Positions 18,227-30,617 of a DNA stretch of 64,000 nt are shown here, piece after piece. The notes beneath the pieces were generated by a model. The model searched no databases and had not been told where the DNA came from. It saw only the letters and a list, made by a program, of their open reading frames with translations. The position numbers and the translations under genes are program-made. This DNA comes from Hormoscilla sp. GUM202 (GTDB taxonomy: Bacteria > Cyanobacteriota > Cyanobacteriia > Cyanobacteriales > Desertifilaceae), in assembly GCA_005518205.2 (NCBI GenBank), contig RFFC02000032.1:1-64000 (forward strand), given 5' to 3'. How positions within the stretch are numbered: the stretch's first letter is position 1; every line of letters starts with the position of its first letter.

Positions 18227-19144
18227 GGGCACAGCAGAGTGCAGATTATCGGTATCGCAAAAGAATCGCCTGCCAGCAATTGCCCTGACCAAGTAAGTAG
18301 TCAGACAAAATTAATTACATATTTTTCTCCAAAATTTTTTATGATTGTTTCAACGGAATCAACTAAGTTTTTCCAGCAAGAATAAGCATCGATTTCAATC
18401 CATTCGTATTTAATAAACCGCCACAAGATTTCAATCAAATTCAAATGAGGTGAATAAGTGGGGAGATGGAATATAGTAATATTGCGTTCTTTCCATTCTT
18501 CAATCTTATCTTGAATAGCATCACTAGTATGGACAGATGCTTGGTCTACTACAATTACTGTTTGCTTTTCCATTCTCGTGGGAAAAAATGCATCGATACA
18601 AGCTATGACTACATCTGAATTAATATTTTGAGTAGATACATACGCTTCTAAATGATTGTGGCGATTCATTATTCCTAATACATTTAATCTGCGGCTACTC
18701 CGACTAGGTACTTCTATATATTCCCCAATATTTTGCCATCCATAAGGGACACAAGGGATTAAATAAAACCCACTTTCATCTAAATAATACAAATTAATTT
18801 CCCCCAAATTGTCTAACAGTTTCAGTTGTTCAAGTTGTGCTTTTTTTTCCTCATACTCTTGAGCTGGGGGGCTGACAGCTACCCCTTTACGCATCCGATG
18901 CCAACTCATATTCATTGTTTTCAATATTCTCTGAACAGTTTTAACAATTGCGGAAGTTCGTATAGGAACTAGACTACAACAAAAAGACACTTTTTTTAAT
19001 TGCCTCGGTTCTTCTTCAGTCCAGGCTTTAATTTTTTCTTTTTGTTCGAGACTAAAGGTTTGCTTACGACCTCTTCCAGACTTATTATATAGTCCGACCA
19101 TTCCCTCGGAATCCCAATTTTTAATCCAATTGTAGATAGTTCTA

Positions 19145-20167
19145 TAGCATTTATCAAAATGGTGAGGTACAGTAGCAACAGTGGGTGAACCAGTTGTGGA
19201 TATCTTGCAGGTTGATGGTAGCAAAGCCCTCCTGAATGCCATCTACTAAGGCCCGATAGGTTCTGGCTTCTAGTTTCTTGAGATAACTCTTCAGCTTTGA
19301 CCAAATATTTTCAATTGGAGAGAAGTCTGGCGAATAAGGAGGAAGATAGACTAACCGCGCCCCCACTTTTTCAATAGCTTGTCGGATTACATCTCCCTTA
19401 TGAATTGTACAGTTGTCCATCACAACACAAGCTCCTTTCCACAGCTTTGGCACTAAGTGTCGAATCACAAATGCCTCAAATGTTAAGCTATCATAAGCAC
19501 CTAAAATATTCAATGAACTCACTATCCCATTGAGACTAACTGCCCCAACTATTGAAACATTTTGTCCTCGCTTACTGGGTTTACTTCCATAAGCTCTCAG
19601 ACCACATTGTGAGCGGGCATACATCCGTGTTAAAGCCAGGTTGCAGCCCGATTCATCCAGAAAAATGAGGTCAGTAGGCTCAATTCCTTCTATCTCTTTC
19701 CAGTAGTCTAACCTTAACTGCTGAACTCGAGAACTTCTCTTTTCCGTCGGATGTAATGCCTTTTTTTTTACGGTCAATCCCGACCGTTTAATCATTCTGT
19801 CTATTGTGGAACGGCTGACTTTTACCTCCGTCTGTTTTTCTAATTCTGACTGATATTCTGACAATGTCCAATCATTATTTTCCTCTACTAAAACTTTGAG
19901 CTTTTCCTGTTGGGACTGGTTGAGCTTGAGGGGACGACCGGTGCTAATACCCGGCTTCAAGTTGCCAGTGGACCGGTACTGCTTGAGAATTTTGATAACG
20001 AAACTGAATGCTACTCGGAATCTTTTGGCTAGTTGTCTTTGTGATATCTCCTCATTTTCATAGGTTTCTATAATTTTCTGGCGGAGATCGACTGAATAGG
20101 GCTTCATGGTTTTCGAGGGTTCTACTGCTGACCTCACTATTGTACCTCATCTTTATGATAAATGCTG
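19145..20167 (-). mobile_element. IS630 element B (1023 bp) nested in element A
   Basis: The inverted ends TAGCATTTATCAAAATGGTG (19145) and CAGCATTTATCATAAAGATG (inverted, 20167) are flanked by TA at 19143-19144 and 20168-20169. It interrupts the codons for DVSY/RTIYNW of the element-A transposase. Confidence 0.9.
19154..20107 (-). CDS. IS630-family transposase (element B)
   Basis: The protein has 317 residues from ATG 20107 (MKPYSVDLRQKIIETYENEE); an upstream ATG at 20137 adds ten codons. An N-terminal winged HTH (QRQLAKRFRVAFSFVIKIL) is followed by a DDE core with LIFLDESGCNLAL, VVMDNCTIHKG and YSPDFSPIENIWSKLK. It catalyses TA-targeted cut-and-paste transposition. It is intact, and its sequence is clearly different from the element-A transposase, so two independent IS630 types coexist here. 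Confidence 0.93.
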   Translation of the reverse strand: MKPYSVDLRQKIIETYENEEISQRQLAKRFRVAFSFVIKILKQYRSTGNLKPGISTGRPLKLNQSQQEKLKVLVEENNDWTLSEYQSELEKQTEVKVSRSTIDRMIKRSGLTVKKKALHPTEKRSSRVQQLRLDYWKEIEGIEPTDLIFLDESGCNLALTRMYARSQCGLRAYGSKPSKRGQNVSIVGAVSLNGIVSSLNILGAYDSLTFEAFVIRHLVPKLWKGACVVMDNCTIHKGDVIRQAIEKVGARLVYLPPYSPDFSPIENIWSKLKSYLKKLEARTYRALVDGIQEGFATINLQDIHNWFTHCCYCTSPF

Positions 20168-20457
20168 TATAACTAACATCAAAGATTTCCATAAGTTCTT
20201 TAAATTTTTTATGTTCTCGATCTCGCAAAAGTAAACAATGTGCTCTTTGACGAACTCGATCATGGCGACTTTGATGATAAATTCGTAAGAGCAATTTTGC
20301 AGAAAGCTCATTTATTTCGCGCATTAAAATCCTTCTTAATTTCTCCTAATTTATCGTCATATTATGTCAAATATATCTGGCCGGGGATGAGCATGAAAAC
20401 CGACTCCCCGTTAGTTTGACAAAAATCTGCTACATGTACGAGTAGCTATATCTAGTA

Positions 20458-20605: not shown

Positions 20606-20762
20606 ATAACTTGGGATTACAACAGCACTCCGATTTTTCCGGAACGGTGGAGAAAATTACCCTAGTAGACCGGATGACCGCCCTATGTGTGCGCATAGCT
20701 ACCAGTGGTAGCTATGTTGTCCTAGATGCTTCGGCATGCACCGGGGGCGCTTGCTGAAGGAA
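20606..20762 (+). pseudogene. Possible gene remnant next to the IS630 end
   Basis: A frame open from the IS border reads YNLGLQQHSDFSGTVEKITL, then VDRMTALCVRIATSGSYVVL and stops at TGA about 20753. DFSGTV is encoded by the 17-bp repeat at 20632-20648. The family is not recognised and there is no start codon. It may be the C-terminal end of a gene cut by the IS. Confidence 0.35.
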
Positions 20763-23474
20763 CTATGAACTACTAGGATTGCTGCTGCGGACAAGAATCA
20801 CAGTACAATCACAGCCAGAGGCGATCGCCTCTGGGATATTGCCCTTAATGGCCTGCTGTAGCAAACCCTCGCGGCGAGCACCCATCATTACCACATCGGT
20901 GTTATCATTAGACGCTTGGTCAATTATGGCTTCGGGAACAGAAGGCGATCGCAGCACTGTGGCAGCGACAAAACCACTCTTCAGTTTCGGCTTGAGAAAC
21001 TGACTCGCCCGGTCGATCGCCTGGCGATCGACCTTGTCCAGTTCTGGATCAAAAACCTGGCACAAGCGGATTTCTGGAGAAAACTGTCCTTTGACAAGGG
21101 CGGGAAGGAGTCGCACCGCCACAGCGCTATTGGGACCACCCGCCATCGGCAATAGCCAGCGTTTGAAGAGGGGGACGGGGCAATAATTAGGAGTGGGATT
21201 TTTCGACAAGGAATTGGGCAGATTGAGTGATAAATTAGGCTCGCTAGCCCCATTGCTGGCCTGGGAGTTGGCCCATTTGACTAGGACCAGATCGCAGGGG
21301 GCTTGCCGGATCAGAGTGTCCACAGCATCGCCAAAAATCCGACCCGGAGTAGTGGCGCTACCCTTCCAACCCATCAGCATGAGGTCAATGTGGCGTTCGG
21401 AAATCGCTTCCAAAATTGCCTGGGCCAGGTCGTGGGTTACCCGCACCTGAGTATGGACTGGCACAACCCCATCTGGTACCATCCGCTTGGCCTTCTCGAA
21501 CAAGACTAAAGATTTGCCGATCTTTACTGGTGTTTCTTCCGGGGGACTGCTGCGAGGTACCATTAGCACCTGGAGACATTCGATTTCATAATCCTTCTCC
21601 ATGGCGATCGCCTGAGCCATCTGTAACAATAGTGGAGCTGTATTCGGGTTGGCCAGGGGTACGAGCAATCTGCCCCGTCCCGTTGCTGGGGCTTTGGTTT
21701 GGTAAACCACATAGGAACGTCCAGTAGCAGAGGTGGCAGCAATCTTACCGTCCAGCCGATCGCCCTCCGTGCGGATAATATCGCTGCGAGTAATAATCCC
21801 CACTAGCTTGCGACCTTCAGTCACGGGTAGCCGACTGAGTTGATAGCGGTTGAGCCGATAGACTACATCCGAGAGAGGATCTGTAGGTCTGACAGTCACG
21901 ACAGGCTGAGCGGTCATAATCTCGCTGACAGGTCGATCGCCCGTCAATCCCTGGGCTGGGATCTTAGCCAGATCGCTCTGAGTCACAATCCCAACCAGCC
22001 TGGCATTCTTGACCACGGGAAAACCGCGATGATGGGAACGGGAAAAGGCTTTAACCACTTCATCAAGGGTGAGTTGACTGGGTAAAGTTTCCACCTTTTT
22101 TTGCATCACCTCTGCGGCCTTCACCTCGAAAGCCTCTGCAGCGGAGGGGGCCCGGAGCGTAGATTCTGCTTGAGGCTGAATACCATTCCATTCCAAGAGG
22201 CGCTGGTAGAGGGAACTGTCCGTTAATATGCTGGAAACCAGGTAAGCAACCACTGAACCAATCATCAGGGGCAGCACGAGATTGAAGTCCGCAGTCATTT
22301 CAAATACGATCACAATGCTAGTGATCGGCACCTTGCCCACAGCACTAAAGAAAGCCCCCATGCCTGCTAGGGCGTAGGTAGTGGGTGCAGCGACTCCCAG
22401 AGTATGGTATTGCCAAGTGCCCACCAGGTGACCGAGAGCAGCTCCCAAAACCAGCGTGGGGGCGAAAAGTCCTCCCGGCGTGCCCGCACCATAGGCGATG
22501 CAGGTGAGCACAAAGTGCGCGACAAAGGCCAGGGTAGCGGTGGCGATCGTCACGTCACCCGCCAGCAGGATTTCTCGCAAACCCGCGTTGTTGTTAAACC
22601 AATCTGGCAGTAGGGCGATCGCCATTCCCGAAACTAATCCTGCCAGGGTCATTCGCCCTGGTAAAGTTAGAGGCAAGCGGCGATTGAGAGTCAGAGAGGT
22701 AATAATCCCTTGATTAAACAGAGTCCCCAGCAGTCCAGCGAGGATACCCAACAACAGGAAGGGGGGAATTTCTGGGGCTGAGAAACTGGTAATGGAGTCG
22801 CTGACTTCCCGGTTGAGATTAAAGTTTTCACCCCCTAGCAACCGCGAGACCACCGCACCCACAAAGGAAGCAACGATCGCTGTTTCCAGGGTAAGTTCCG
22901 AGACATCATGTAGCAGTTCCTCAATTACAAATAGAACTCCGGCAATGGGGGCATTAAAACCCGCAGCTAATCCTGCCGCCGCCCCCGCAGCGATCATCTG
23001 GCGTCGGTGTTTGGGAGAAGTCGGAACTATGCGGGCTAAACTAGCTGCTAGGGCGGCCCCAATTTGCACTGTTGGCCCTTGGCGACCCAGAGTCAGTCCC
23101 GAAGAGACAGATAATAGGGTACTCGAGAATTTGACTAGGGCCACGCGCCAGTTCAGCACGATGGATCCACCAGTCAGGGCTGACTTAACTTGGGCAACGC
23201 CGCTACCCCGAGTTTCCGGTGCAAATTGCTCTATCAACCAGCCAGCAATGAAGCCAAAACTGATGCCGATCGCTGGGAAAACGAACCAAACTGGCAGGTA
23301 GCTAGACGTCTGTATACGAACTGGTCCTAATAGCCCGATGCCATTTTTGAGCAAAACTGCGCTGCATCCCGATACCAAACCAATGATGCAAGCTTCTACG
23401 TTCGCGCCAGCACGGGAGGTACTTGCCCTTTCTAGGCGGCGTTTGGGCGATAGAAAGCGGCTCAGGCTAAACAT
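20763..23474 (-). CDS. ClC chloride channel/antiporter with CBS pair and two Usp domains
   Basis: The product has 903 residues. Residues ~20-430 form the ClC membrane domain: RGSGVAQVK (selectivity loop), LGRQGPTVQIGA, VLFVIEELL and GTPGGLFAPTLVLGAALG. Two CBS domains follow (~445-570, ITRSDI and related), which bind adenine nucleotides, and then two universal-stress (Usp) domains (~600-760 and ~780-900, with MGWKGSATTPGRIFG and MMGARREGLLQ). The canonical gating glutamate in GREGP is Gln here (CAA codon), which in E. coli ClC uncouples Cl- from H+ transport. It is likely a membrane anion channel regulated by its cytoplasmic domains. Confidence 0.92.
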   Translation of the reverse strand: MFSLSRFLSPKRRLERASTSRAGANVEACIIGLVSGCSAVLLKNGIGLLGPVRIQTSSYLPVWFVFPAIGISFGFIAGWLIEQFAPETRGSGVAQVKSALTGGSIVLNWRVALVKFSSTLLSVSSGLTLGRQGPTVQIGAALAASLARIVPTSPKHRRQMIAAGAAAGLAAGFNAPIAGVLFVIEELLHDVSELTLETAIVASFVGAVVSRLLGGENFNLNREVSDSITSFSAPEIPPFLLLGILAGLLGTLFNQGIITSLTLNRRLPLTLPGRMTLAGLVSGMAIALLPDWFNNNAGLREILLAGDVTIATATLAFVAHFVLTCIAYGAGTPGGLFAPTLVLGAALGHLVGTWQYHTLGVAAPTTYALAGMGAFFSAVGKVPITSIVIVFEMTADFNLVLPLMIGSVVAYLVSSILTDSSLYQRLLEWNGIQPQAESTLRAPSAAEAFEVKAAEVMQKKVETLPSQLTLDEVVKAFSRSHHRGFPVVKNARLVGIVTQSDLAKIPAQGLTGDRPVSEIMTAQPVVTVRPTDPLSDVVYRLNRYQLSRLPVTEGRKLVGIITRSDIIRTEGDRLDGKIAATSATGRSYVVYQTKAPATGRGRLLVPLANPNTAPLLLQMAQAIAMEKDYEIECLQVLMVPRSSPPEETPVKIGKSLVLFEKAKRMVPDGVVPVHTQVRVTHDLAQAILEAISERHIDLMLMGWKGSATTPGRIFGDAVDTLIRQAPCDLVLVKWANSQASNGASEPNLSLNLPNSLSKNPTPNYCPVPLFKRWLLPMAGGPNSAVAVRLLPALVKGQFSPEIRLCQVFDPELDKVDRQAIDRASQFLKPKLKSGFVAATVLRSPSVPEAIIDQASNDNTDVVMMGARREGLLQQAIKGNIPEAIASGCDCTVILVRSSNPSSS

Positions 23475-23645: not shown

Positions 23646-25870
23646 TTAATCCGTTTTTCCGGTAACCGAAAGACCATCAACAATCAAGGATGGGGTATAG
23701 CAGGAACTTTTCCAGTCGGCGTCGCCTCCCAATGCCACTAATTGTTTCAGGGCCTGATAGACATTACCTGCAACCATCGTATCTTTAACTCGACCGACTA
23801 TTTGACCATCACGGACAAGATATCCCAGGTCAACGTTGATGGAAAATTCTCCAGAAATTCCCGAGGCATCGCCAAGAATCCGATCTACTACCAGTCCATT
23901 CTCTAGCTGAGTAATTAATTCCCGCAGTTGACCCGTTCCGGGTTTAATTAGTAAGTTAAACAGACCCGGTTTGGGATAACTCCCTAAACCGGGGCGAAAC
24001 CCATTACCTGTCGTTCCTTGACCTAGCAAGCCGCCCGTGGTCCGATCGGCGTAGAAGTTTTCTAAGATCCCATTTTGGATGAATACTAAGGGTTGGGTGC
24101 TCGTGCCTTCGTCGTCAAAGAGGCAACTGTAAGGACCAGCTTCTGGTTGCTGGAAAAGGGTGAGGTGGGTGGAGATTACCTGTTCTCCTAAGAAGTCACT
24201 CCAGGGGGATGCTTTCTCTACTACCTGTTTGCCGTTGAGGGCGCTACTAATTATTCCCCAGAATAGGTCTGCTGCTTTGGCAGTAAACAAGATTGGCAGG
24301 CGACCTGTTGTGGGGGGCGGCACGTTTGATTTGGCCCAGTCTAATCGCTGTAATAATGTATTTGCTATTAGCTTGGGATCTAAGCTGTCCCGCTGGGTTT
24401 GACCTTCACTCACGCCCAATAAATCATCCCCCCGCACCCATTCTGATTCTAGATAGCAGCTGAGGGTGCGGTCTGTATAGCTACGGTTGAGTCCTTTGGA
24501 GTTGATGATGCTAGTTGTTTCTATTTCACAATCCCATTCGCTATTGCAGATGACTTCTGGATATGCCTCTCTCACCCGCCCGATCGCCTCTTGACCCCAG
24601 GCTACCAGCTGTTCTGCTGCCACATATTTTCCCATATTGCCCTCGACATCCTCACCGACCTTATCGGCTAATTCTATCTTTCCTGTAGGATTGAGATGGG
24701 ATAGGGCGATCGCCCGTTCTACCAGCGCTTTTGGGTCCACTGGACCGTAGGCTACTGCCAAACCCGGACGCCCGTCCACCCACAGTCGTAGGGCCGTACC
24801 TGCTGATTCACTGTTCGTCAGTTCCTTGAGTCGGTTCGCCTCGAATGTCACTGACAACTCGCGCGATCGCTCTTGAAATACTTCTGCTGCTTCTGCGCCA
24901 TTTGGTTGGGGTCGAGCTGGGAATCACTTCCCAACCCTCCCTTTCAAAACCGTGCTTGCAGCTTTCACCGCACACGGCTCCTGGGTAATAGGCCCGTTGT
25001 CATGGGCAGGGATTTATCTGAATTACCCCATTGTCCCCTTGCGATCTGTTCTTCATTCTTATCCCGTGGCGTACAACGGGAGACTAATCCTCTACCGTCA
25101 GCTTTGTATGGTTCCGTGATGGCGAGTGGATTACCTGCCAACCGAGAGCATTCACTCTACTCGCGCTTTTAGAAGCAGTTTTACCAGTAACCGGCTGTCG
25201 GCGGTCATTTAGTTCATCAAACTACAGTTCCTACCGCTTCCTACTATCACCGTCCTATGTCAGCATATCCCAGACATTACCCTAGGCATTGGCTTCTTAG
25301 GACATCCCTCCCCAGTGAGCTTGCGCCTGTTATCTAACTTATCTACCGAGTGGTAAATAGCGTCACTGAGGTTATAACGTTCCGTGGAATCAATATGATG
25401 CTTTTAGGTCGCTGCAATACCCCGAGAGGGTTGTTGTAATACGAGATATCCAAGGAAAACGAATATCCACACCTGCTATTGCCTTTTGGCTCCAGCGCAT
25501 AAAGCCTTATTTCGCTGGTTATATATGACGAGGCTTGTACAGCTTCACTTATTGTTAACCATGAGCACCTTTCCTAGCGACGTCTCCGGCTTAGGCTGCC
25601 AGATAGCCTTCATTTAAGTCCCTGCTCTCCACCACCAGCGATAACACTCCGTGGCAGTTGGGACCGGTGTACCTCCCGTATTTGGAGGGTGGGGTTAGGA
25701 CCCACAATAATTCCACAGTTCCCCGGCTAATGTTACCGGTTTGGGTTGTCTCAGGCCTGATGGCCTAGATTACACCCGAACGTCTCGCACTTTCCTGCTA
25801 TATCTAACAGTTTATCCGCCAATTTTTCTTGTTCTCTGTCCACCGTTCCGGAAAAATCAGTATCTGTCAC
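23646..25870 (-). CDS. TldD/PmbA family metallopeptidase-like protein, split by a group II intron
   Basis: Exon 2 (24903-23646) encodes the body: FEANRLKELTNSESAGTALR, LWVDGRPGLAVAYG, and C-terminal LGSYPKPGLFNLLIKPGTG and SGEFSINVDLGYLVRDG. TldD/PmbA proteins form a heterodimeric zinc protease for peptide maturation and toxin turnover. Exon 1 lies beyond the intron: GTG 25843 (VDREQEKLADKLLDIAG) or GTG 25868-25870. Joining 25791 to 24903 keeps the frame (437 codons from 25843) and gives LLDIAGKNGAEAAEVFQER, as expected for the family. Without splicing the N-terminal helix is lost. Confidence 0.85.
24904..25790 (-). mobile_element. ORF-less group II intron in the tldD-like gene (887 nt)
   Basis: The 5' end is GTGCG (25790-25786). 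Near the 3' end domain V reads GAGCCGTGTGCGGTGAAAG followed by a CACGGTT strand, then domain VI and a CCCCAAC(C) end. It is about 85-90 percent similar by eye to the other introns at 28142-29947. It has no reverse transcriptase/maturase ORF. Exact splice positions are uncertain by one base: GTGCG at the 5' end implies ..AACC at the 3' end, or an AY end implies one extra 5' base. Confidence 0.87.
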
Positions 25871-28037: not shown

Positions 28038-30617
28038 TTAGGCTGCTTGGAGTTCTTGTTGAAATAGCTGCTGCACCTGCTTCCAGGCGTCAGTTGCAGC
28101 TTCATGATTATAACTAGAACGGTGGTCGCAGCAGAAACCGTGGTCGGGGTCGAGCTGGGAATCGCTTCCCAACCCTCCCTTTCAAAACCGTGCTTGCGAC
28201 TTTCACCGCACACGGCTCCTGGGTAATAGACCCGTTGTCATGGGTAGGGATTTGTCGGGGTTACCCCCTTGTCCCCTTGCGACTTGTTCTTCATCTTTAT
28301 CCTGTGGCGTACAACAGGAGACTAATCCTCTACCGTCAGCCTTGTGTGATTCCGTGGTGGCGAGTGGATTGCCTACCAACCGAGAGATTTCTCTCTGCTC
28401 GCTCTTTTAGAAGTAGTTTTACCAGTAACCAGCTATCGGCGGGCTTTTAGTTCATCAGACTACAGTTCCAATCGCATTCTACTATCACCGTCCTATGTCG
28501 GCATATCCTAGGCATTACCCCAAGCGTTGGCTTTTTAGGACATCCCTCCCCAGTGGGCTTGCGCTTATTATCTAACTTATCTACCGGAGGCAGATAGCAT
28601 CACTGAGGTTATAACGTTCCGTGGAATCAATACGATGCTTTTAGGTCGTTGCAATACCCCGGGAGGATTGTAGTAATACGAGATATCCACAGACCAAGGA
28701 TATCTACACCTACCATTGCCTTTTGGCCCAGCGTAAAAGCCTTATTCCGCTGGTTGATGATCACGAGGCTTGTACAACTTCACTTATCGTTAACCATGAG
28801 CACCTTTCCTAGTGGCGTTTCCGGCTTAGGCTGCCAGATAGCCTTCATTTAAGTCCCTGCTTTCCACCCCCGGCGATAACACTCCGAGGCAGTTGGGACC
28901 GGTGTACCTCCCGTATCTGGAGGATGGGGTTAGGACCCACAATAATTCCACAGTTCCCTGGCTAATCTCACCAGTTTGAGCTGTCACGAGTTTAGCGGGT
29001 CATTGAAACCACGCTATCTTTGCTTACGCTCGAACATTCCGCACGGTCGGGGTCGAGCTGGGAATCGCTTCCCAACCCTCCCTTTCAAAACCGTGCTTGC
29101 GACTTTCACCGCACACGGCTCCTGGGTAATAGACCCGTTGTCATGGGTAGGGATTTGTCGGGGTTACCCCCTTGTCCCCTTGCGACTTGTTCTTCATCTT
29201 TATCCTGTGGCGTACAACAGGAGACTAATCCTCTACCGTCAGCCTTGTGTGATTCCGTGGTGGCGAGTGGATTGCCTACCAACCGAGAGATTTCTCTCTG
29301 CTCGCTCTTTTAGAAGTAGTTTTACCAGTAACCAGCTATCGGCGGGCTTTTAGTTCATCAGACTACAGTTCCAATCGCATTCTACTATCACCGTCCTATG
29401 TCGGCATATCCTAGGCATTACCCCAAGCGTTGGCTTTTTAGGACATCCCTCCCCAGTGGGCTTGCGCTTATTATCTAACTTATCTACCGGAGGCAGATAG
29501 CATCACTGAGGTTATAACGTTCCGTGGAATCAATACGATGCTTTTAGGTCGTTGCAATACCCCGGGAGGATTGTAGTAATACGAGATATCCACAGACCAA
29601 GGATATCTACACCTACCATTGCCTTTTGGCCCAGCGTAAAAGCCTTATTCCGCTGGTTGATGATCACGAGGCTTGTACAACTTCACTTATCGTTAACCAT
29701 GAGCACCTTTCCTAGTGGCGTTTCCGGCTTAGGCTGCCAGATAGCCTTCATTTAAGTCCCTGCTTTCCACCCCCGGCGATAACACTCCGAGGCAGTTGGG
29801 ACCGGTGTACCTCCCGTATCTGGAGGATGGGGTTAGGACCCACAATAATTCCACAGTTCCCTGGCTAATCTCACCAGTTTGAGCTGTCACGAGTTTAGCG
29901 GGTCATTGAAACCACGCTATCTTTGCTTACGCTCGAACATTCCGCACGGTCTGCTCCATCGTAGCGAAAGATGCGATGGGAAATTCGATGTTTTTGCAGT
30001 TCGGCCTCTATTTGGTCTACTTGTGCTGCTGGGATGCTGGCGTCTTCCATGCCAAAGAAGCCGTAGATGGTGCCTTTAATCTCGGGAGTGCAGGTAATGG
30101 TGGCCGGGCCGTCTCCGGGAGACCAGTTGGTGATGCCCGCACCGTAGAATGAGGCGGTGGCTTGGATCTCGGGTAGGGTGGCGGCAAGATAGGCTACGTG
30201 ACCCCCAAAACAGAAGCCAATACAACCAAAGCCCGATTTTTCGGACCGTCCGCGGGCCGATCGGGCCACCTCTGCGTGCTGTTTCAGGTAGTCTATGGTG
30301 GCCTGGATGTCGCTTTTCAGTTCCTCGGCCTTGGTTTGGGCTTTGTATTCCTTGCCGATTGTGATATCTTCCGGGGTGTAACCGGCTTCAAATCCCGGGG
30401 CGATGCGCTGGTAGATGGCAGGGGCGATCGCCACATAGCCATCGGAGGCGATCCGTTCGGTCACCTCTCGGATATGGGCGTTGACTCCGAATATCTCCTG
30501 TATGACTACCACTGCAGGGAAGGTTCCCGATGCTGCGGGTTGGGCCAGGTAAGCGTCGAGGTGTAAGTCCCCGTTGGGCACTTGGACTTGGGCGGTGCGA
30601 ATTTCTGGGTCGGCCAT
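28038..30617 (-). CDS. Dienelactone hydrolase family protein, split by two tandem group II introns
   Basis: Exon 1 (30617-29948) encodes MADPEIRTAQVQVPNGDLHL, FPAVVVIQEIFGVN, the nucleophile motif GFGCIGFCFGGH (Cys) and FGMEDASIP (Asp), ending at FRYDGAD. Exon 2 (28141-28038) supplies HGFCCDHRSSYNHEAATDAW to the stop. Together they make 774 nt = 258 codons and the expected GADHGF active-site segment. The catalytic His is therefore the first residue after the splice junction, and an unspliced message gives an enzyme lacking one triad member. The family hydrolyses lactones/esters in the cytoplasm. It is in one operon with the S1 gene. Confidence 0.9.
28142..29044 (-). mobile_element. ORF-less group II intron, tandem copy B (903 nt)
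   Basis: The 5' GTGCG is at 29044-29040. The domain V strand pair GAGCCGTGTGCGGTGAAAG / GCACGGTT lies at about 28218-28186, and the 3' end CCCCGAC(C) abuts exon 2. No maturase ORF is present. It appears identical to copy A base for base over 903 positions. Confidence 0.9.
29045..29947 (-). mobile_element. ORF-less group II intron, tandem copy A (903 nt)
   Basis: The 5' GTGCG (29947-29943) follows exon 1 directly. Its 3' end (CCCCGACC at 29052-29045) is joined with no spacer to the GTGCG of copy B. Two precise copies without intervening exon sequence imply either tandem insertion, unequal recombination, or an assembly duplication. Confidence 0.88.

Follow-up and report, generated by a model that had tools for sequence, protein, structure and literature searches.

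In a cyanobacterial family of ClC proteins that carry CBS and Usp domains, the gating glutamate has commonly given way to a conserved glutamine or, in one clade, to arginine. By analogy with the E148Q mutant of E. coli ClC-ec1 and with ClC-K, the family would be uncoupled from protons, and we lean towards reading its members as anion uniporters or channels of ancient origin, free of H+ coupling and under cytosolic regulation, that would let Cl- or another small anion move passively.

A ClC gene with glutamine at the gate position

The window, the whole 64-kb stretch of Hormoscilla DNA that we analyzed, contains on its minus strand an ORF with an ATG start (20763–23474) that encodes a 903-residue protein in which a ClC domain, a CBS pair and a Usp pair follow one another in a single chain. 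This gene is the single match to PF00654 in the source genome, which is 95.85% complete. Residues 73–414 (22233–23258, minus strand) matched the Voltage_CLC transmembrane model PF00654 over model positions 1–345 of 346, with 312.2 bits against a cut-off of 24.8, placing the protein in the CLC superfamily. An AlphaFold model built with 21 family sequences had a mean pLDDT of 75.9 and a pTM of 0.51, with helix F beginning at residue 132, and a Foldseek search with this predicted model matched structures of ClC-3, ClC-7 and ClC-ec1, the last with a TMt of about 0.84.

The gate motif of the protein is LGRQGPTVQIGA, with residue 132 encoded by CAA (23079–23081, minus strand). The sequence-only reading had placed this Gln at the position of E148, the gating glutamate of ClC-ec1, and two alignments bore it out. 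Q132 fell on E148 when the protein was aligned to solved ClC-ec1 chains, the top-scoring of which (2exy) carries Q there too, and it fell in the same E148 column of a MAFFT alignment of the family. No substitute gate was seen in the transmembrane columns of the family alignment.

Other residues of the pore are retained. Ser91 (23202–23204, minus strand) and Tyr423 (22206–22208, minus strand) correspond to S107 and Y445 of the central Cl- site and inner gate. Glu185-Glu186 (22917–22922, minus strand), the EE of VIEELL that the same reading had described as kept, indeed corresponds to E202/E203, the internal proton glutamate. Further pairs are Lys115 with K131, Phe173 with F190, Phe337 with F357, and Lys43 with D54; ClC-ec1 position 153 is Gln, not His. 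The pore motifs of CLC proteins are GSGIP, GRxGP and GGxFxP, plus Tyr445, and the window protein has a variant GSGVA together with GRQGP, GGLFAP and Y423. Of the two glutamates expected of an antiporter, it thus has the one at E203 (Glu186) and not the one at E148 (Gln132), and, as in ClC-K, its wild-type gate residue is something other than Glu.

The cytosolic part begins with the CBS pair at about residues 451–571 (21762–22124, minus strand), with GIVTQSD (495) and GIITRSD (559), which we take to be its ribose-binding motifs. Pfam found two Usp stretches: the first domain covers residues 601–733 (21276–21674, minus strand) and the second about residues 772–896 (20787–21161, minus strand), with limits taken from predicted strands. 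A Usp motif is expected to end in GS/T; the first one in the window protein terminates in GD.

It is extremely improbable that Gln132 is a sequencing error or that the gene is decaying. The two nearest named relatives, Hormoscilla MAGs with 94 and 91% identity over the best segment, carry the same Gln codon (CAA was read at Hormoscilla loci L002 and L033), so that it is common to three assemblies; Gln also occurs in 104 homologs, and the ORF in the window is intact. A read error at this codon, which the sequence-only reading had named as a way for its claim to fail, was rejected on these grounds. Speaking for decay is one Hormoscilla MAG, GM7CHS1pb, in which the ClC ORF (L033:5001–7832) is broken across several frames by assembly indels or decay.

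Upstream of the ClC gene lies a PmbA/TldD-type gene (23646–24857), and a gene of this type likewise lies beside the ClC gene of a Gln-type genome (L248:2–1252). Directly downstream are overlapping transposase-like ORFs (18301–20324), presumably of IS630 type. A dispersed 15-base repeat, TTTTTCCGGAACGGT, occurs with at most one mismatch at 20634, 23569, 23595, 25842 (minus strand), 31180 and 60932, giving 6 copies against 0.01 expected, and three of the copies flank the ClC gene. There is also a duplication at 28142–29344 with a 903-base spacing, in which two 300-base stretches are 100% alike; a third copy, about 3.2 kb off, is 87–91% alike, and related stretches lie at 25000–25750, 28589–28985 and 29492–29888.

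Gate residues across the family

Gln proved to be a conserved, lineage-wide state, a matter that the sequence-only reading had left to an alignment of cyanobacterial homologs. After removal of duplicates, nested pieces and weak matches, 170 ORFs were aligned, 8 of them without the gate position; the remaining 162 non-identical ORFs had Gln in 104, Arg in 43 and Glu in 15, in a set partly selected by pattern searches, which favor Gln and Glu. Three Gln pieces fell below the score cut. The protein-search subset alone, itself partly hand-chosen, gave Gln 81, Arg 26 and Glu 4, with the position absent once (n = 112). The loci came from a scan of named genomes (34 loci), from 60 chosen regions that were fetched, and from a search of 40 more named genomes, of which 30 loci were kept. 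The 104 Gln codons comprise 74 CAA and 30 CAG, and Arg is encoded by all six of its codons.

With E ≤ 1e-100 as the cut-off, a whole-protein search of 291 genomes from the order matched at least 273. Scanning 386 genomes of the phylum by pattern, we found GRQGPTVQIG in 24 and GREGPTVQIG in 9; 7 of the 24 Gln-pattern genomes belong outside the order, within the same class. Three genomes (G203, G336 and G385) have both a Gln copy and a Glu copy. The matches of one contig scan were cyanobacterial except for a MAG named Chloroflexaceae and for a Desulfarculaceae MAG that matched weakly in the CBS region. A plasmid search matched two Nostoc records. The gene in the Chloroflexaceae MAG (L022) has an Arg gate and falls inside the cyanobacterial Arg clade, by mis-binning or transfer.

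The family's loss of the gate stands out against other cyanobacterial ClC proteins. PF00654 was sought in 44 hand-picked cyanobacterial genomes and matched in 42, and all 19 ClC genes read outside the ClC-CBS-Usp family have the gate Glu. These comprise GPEGPSV/GPEAPSV types (524–677 residues), GREGTALQ (427–574), GPEAPMVQ (431–435), GTESPAA (450–482) and GPEAPLV (466) types, and one ClcA-like GREGPTIQMG protein (471). The closest outside relative of the family in our trees, a 572-residue ClC-CBS protein without Usp domains (L190), also has the gate Glu. Because the glutamate is present in all of these, in L190 and in E. coli ClC, its loss belongs to the ClC-CBS-Usp family. The sole ClC gene found was of Gln or Arg type in 13 of the 44 hand-picked genomes.

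Away from the gate, the pore is strongly conserved. F190 is Phe in 162/162 members and K131 is Lys in 140/140 full-length ones; S107 and Y445 are each kept in 89 of the 91 full-length Gln members, and both Gln and Arg members show strong conservation of F357 and Y445. The CBS-motif Asp is present at both sites in 91/91 full-length Gln members, and at the two sites in 38/43 and 42/43 Arg members; Usp motifs are variable across the family and less regular. Glu-gate members (L060–L069 and relatives) mostly have Leu for F357 (11/15) and often a GSGMSE motif, so that their filter differs. The idea that Lys at position 54 accompanies the lost gate was weakened, since the Glu-gate members L006, L131 and L161, which have F357, share this Lys, and L068 carries Arg there.

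These alignments bear on whether the proteins remain proton-coupled exchangers, with H+ passing via E203, a His at 153 or water chains despite the Gln or Arg gate, which we consider unlikely. Such a route would account for the retention of E202 as Glu in 162/162 members and of E203 as Glu in 158 (with D in 3 and Q in 1; Glu in 87/91 full-length Gln members), and for a His at 153 in 39/43 Arg and 27/91 full-length Gln members. The window protein, however, has no His at 153, and no transmembrane column of the family alignment holds an acidic residue common to Gln and Arg members yet rare in Glu members; a compensating acidic residue near the gate was rejected on that account. In ClC-ec1, E148Q mimics the protonated Glu, and Cl- transport remains while H+ signals resemble those of control vesicles (PMC7253180, excerpt). 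The retained E203 would be odd if proton transfer were gone, and counts against uncoupling, but E203A ClC-ec1 still pumps H+ (PMC7253180, excerpt), so E203 may have another role. One member, L108, has Gln both at the gate and at E203, and is the sole ClC found in its genome (G308).

The arginine clade and the probable order of gate changes

Members of the Arg clade carry GRRGPTVHIG or GRRAPTVHIG in place of the usual gate motif, and GGGIP in place of GSGIP. The resulting Gly at S107 is found in 41 of 43 Arg members and in 1 of 104 Gln members. Full-length Arg members otherwise keep Y445 (41/43) and both E202 and E203 (43/43). Two genomes of 1.4–1.5 Mb retain an Arg-type gene; in one of them (G573, 1.4 Mb) the gene, L246, encodes an Arg-gate ClC with CBS and no Usp domains.

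We examined the history of the gate with two trees, a quick and a careful one, both of which left out the columns for the gate and for S107. The quick tree, with 123 rows, required three gate-state changes and nested a Glu clade inside Gln, whereas the careful tree, with 50 rows and a mixture model, required two, with Glu basal, Gln plus Arg supported at 94/79, and Arg at 100/100. None of the 200 bootstrap trees of the careful analysis (0%) grouped the Gln members by themselves, as expected if Arg arose within Gln. We prefer the careful tree, and with it the order Glu to Gln to Arg, which is feasible by single-base steps (GAR-CAR-CGR). Most simply, then, the gate Glu would have been replaced once by Gln and later by Arg in one clade. 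Two points stand against a single replacement: the support for Gln plus Arg in the careful tree (94/79) is not starred, and the quick tree disagrees. A reversion from Gln to Glu is suggested by the quick tree and not by the careful one, and we did not adopt it. CBS and Usp domains are already present in L006, a Glu-gate member, so these sequences suggest that Usp was probably acquired before the gate was lost. A gain of Usp together with Gln was rejected, since L006 has both domains and the Glu members lie outside Gln plus Arg in the careful tree.

The Arg clade probably includes Sll1864 of Synechocystis as an orthologue. In three of the five genomes from one genus (L239–L241), an RF2-like ORF lies near the family gene; the L239 ORF has PCRF and RF-1 by Pfam, and those of L240 and L241 begin alike. 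Similarly, sll1864, a chloride channel gene, adjoins sll1865, which encodes release factor 2 (PMC4463661, excerpt). Sll1864, a "probable chloride channel," is therefore likened to Arg-type proteins by this shared neighborhood, not by sequence. In the two remaining genomes of this genus, no RF2-like ORF was found near the gene (L242) and prfB does not adjoin it (G014). The sll1864 mRNA rises transiently after salt shock, with the protein undetected (PMC8670252, excerpt), and is lower during the first day of iron loss (PMC3516471, excerpt); the nirP1 transcript overlaps sll1864 (PMC10907346, excerpt). The passages on sll1864 in this literature, which concern salt shock, iron loss, nirP1 and sll1865, contain no transport data for Sll1864.

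A pore without a closing glutamate, and known CLC proteins

In the mechanism we propose, Gln would be unable to shuttle protons, making transport uncoupled and electrogenic. The outer gate would lack its closing carboxylate, and the inner constriction at S107 and Y445 would still be rate-limiting in Gln members. The CBS pair and the Usp domains would set activity from the cytosolic side, plausibly via a stress signal or via adenine nucleotides, which CBS motifs bind in other CBS proteins. The protein could then act as a regulated leak for anions that helps to balance charge or osmolarity, for instance following salt shock. Against the proposal stand the GD ending of the first Usp motif, the variability of Usp motifs and the Arg-gate copy with no Usp domain. 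For the Arg clade, S107G and a fixed positive charge would together provide an anion-attracting site instead of a closing carboxylate. We hold more tentatively, at slightly less than even confidence, that many cyanobacteria have a natural CLC without the gating Glu, a prokaryotic anion channel or uniporter uncoupled from protons, whose control has passed to cytosolic CBS/Usp sensors instead of a gate that can be protonated, with one clade adding Arg and a Ser-to-Gly change. Our literature search found no transport measurement of any family member.

Published work on E148 mutants constrains this proposal. Proteins with E148Q are described in a review as passive chloride conductors (PMC5362633, excerpt), but in ClC-ec1 the mutation removes just one bottleneck of the two on the outer side (PMC7253180, excerpt), and E148A transports about 974 ions/s, roughly a third of the wild-type rate (PMC7274781, excerpt). 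The sequence-only reading had inferred both a loss of proton coupling and a constitutive chloride conductance; the former fits the E148Q work, and the latter may not carry over to the window protein. Its further suggestion that the CBS and Usp domains are the only gate is doubtful, given the remaining inner-gate residues S107 and Y445, the slow ClC-ec1 mutants, and the Arg-gate ClC-CBS protein without Usp.

That the pore is weak or silent, and that the CBS and Usp domains make the protein chiefly a sensor of nucleotides or stress anchored in the membrane, also seems improbable. The lost gating residue and the large cytosolic part would suit a sensor, and Arg might block the pore where the central serine is lost as well. 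Yet F190, F357, K131 and Y445 are conserved in Gln and Arg members beyond what a dead pore would need, and one reduced genome retained ClC and CBS while having no Usp. Uncoupled anion transport remains our preferred reading.

The superfamily was already known, and annotations call such genes chloride channels; what appears new is the conserved Gln and Arg at the gate. Among the titles and abstracts searched, in a collection with few subscription journals, none dealt with the gate of ClC-CBS-Usp proteins or with an Arg gate joined to a Ser-to-Gly pore. Engineering away the gating glutamate gives the standard uncoupling mutant, and a widespread natural Gln/Arg family would supply natural uncoupled CLCs to set against exchangers. 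In tractable cyanobacteria, it would also allow a test of pore gating by CBS and Usp domains, with a bearing on cyanobacterial charge and chloride balance.

Among known systems, the solved cyanobacterial CLC, Sll0855 (3ND0), belongs to the same superfamily but has a 466-residue chain, against 903 here, and is presumably an antiporter with the gating Glu. The E. coli CLC-ec1 mutant E148Q (1OTU) has Gln at the gate and shares S107, F190, E203, F357 and Y445 with the window protein, whose Gln is natural and family-conserved rather than engineered, and which has Lys for D54 and attached CBS and Usp domains. The gating glutamate is conserved in almost all CLCs (PMC4746265, excerpt); thylakoid AtCLCe was rejected as a gate-less relative because it keeps this residue (PMC4746265, excerpt), and a CLC-0 paper uses the phrase "lacking the gating glutamate" (PMC7757909). 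Vertebrate ClC-K likewise shows natural loss of the gating glutamate, having Val at the gate and forming largely open channels (PMC5362633, excerpt). The family described here differs from ClC-K in being bacterial, in having Gln or Arg rather than Val, and in carrying Usp domains where ClC-K has its barttin subunit.
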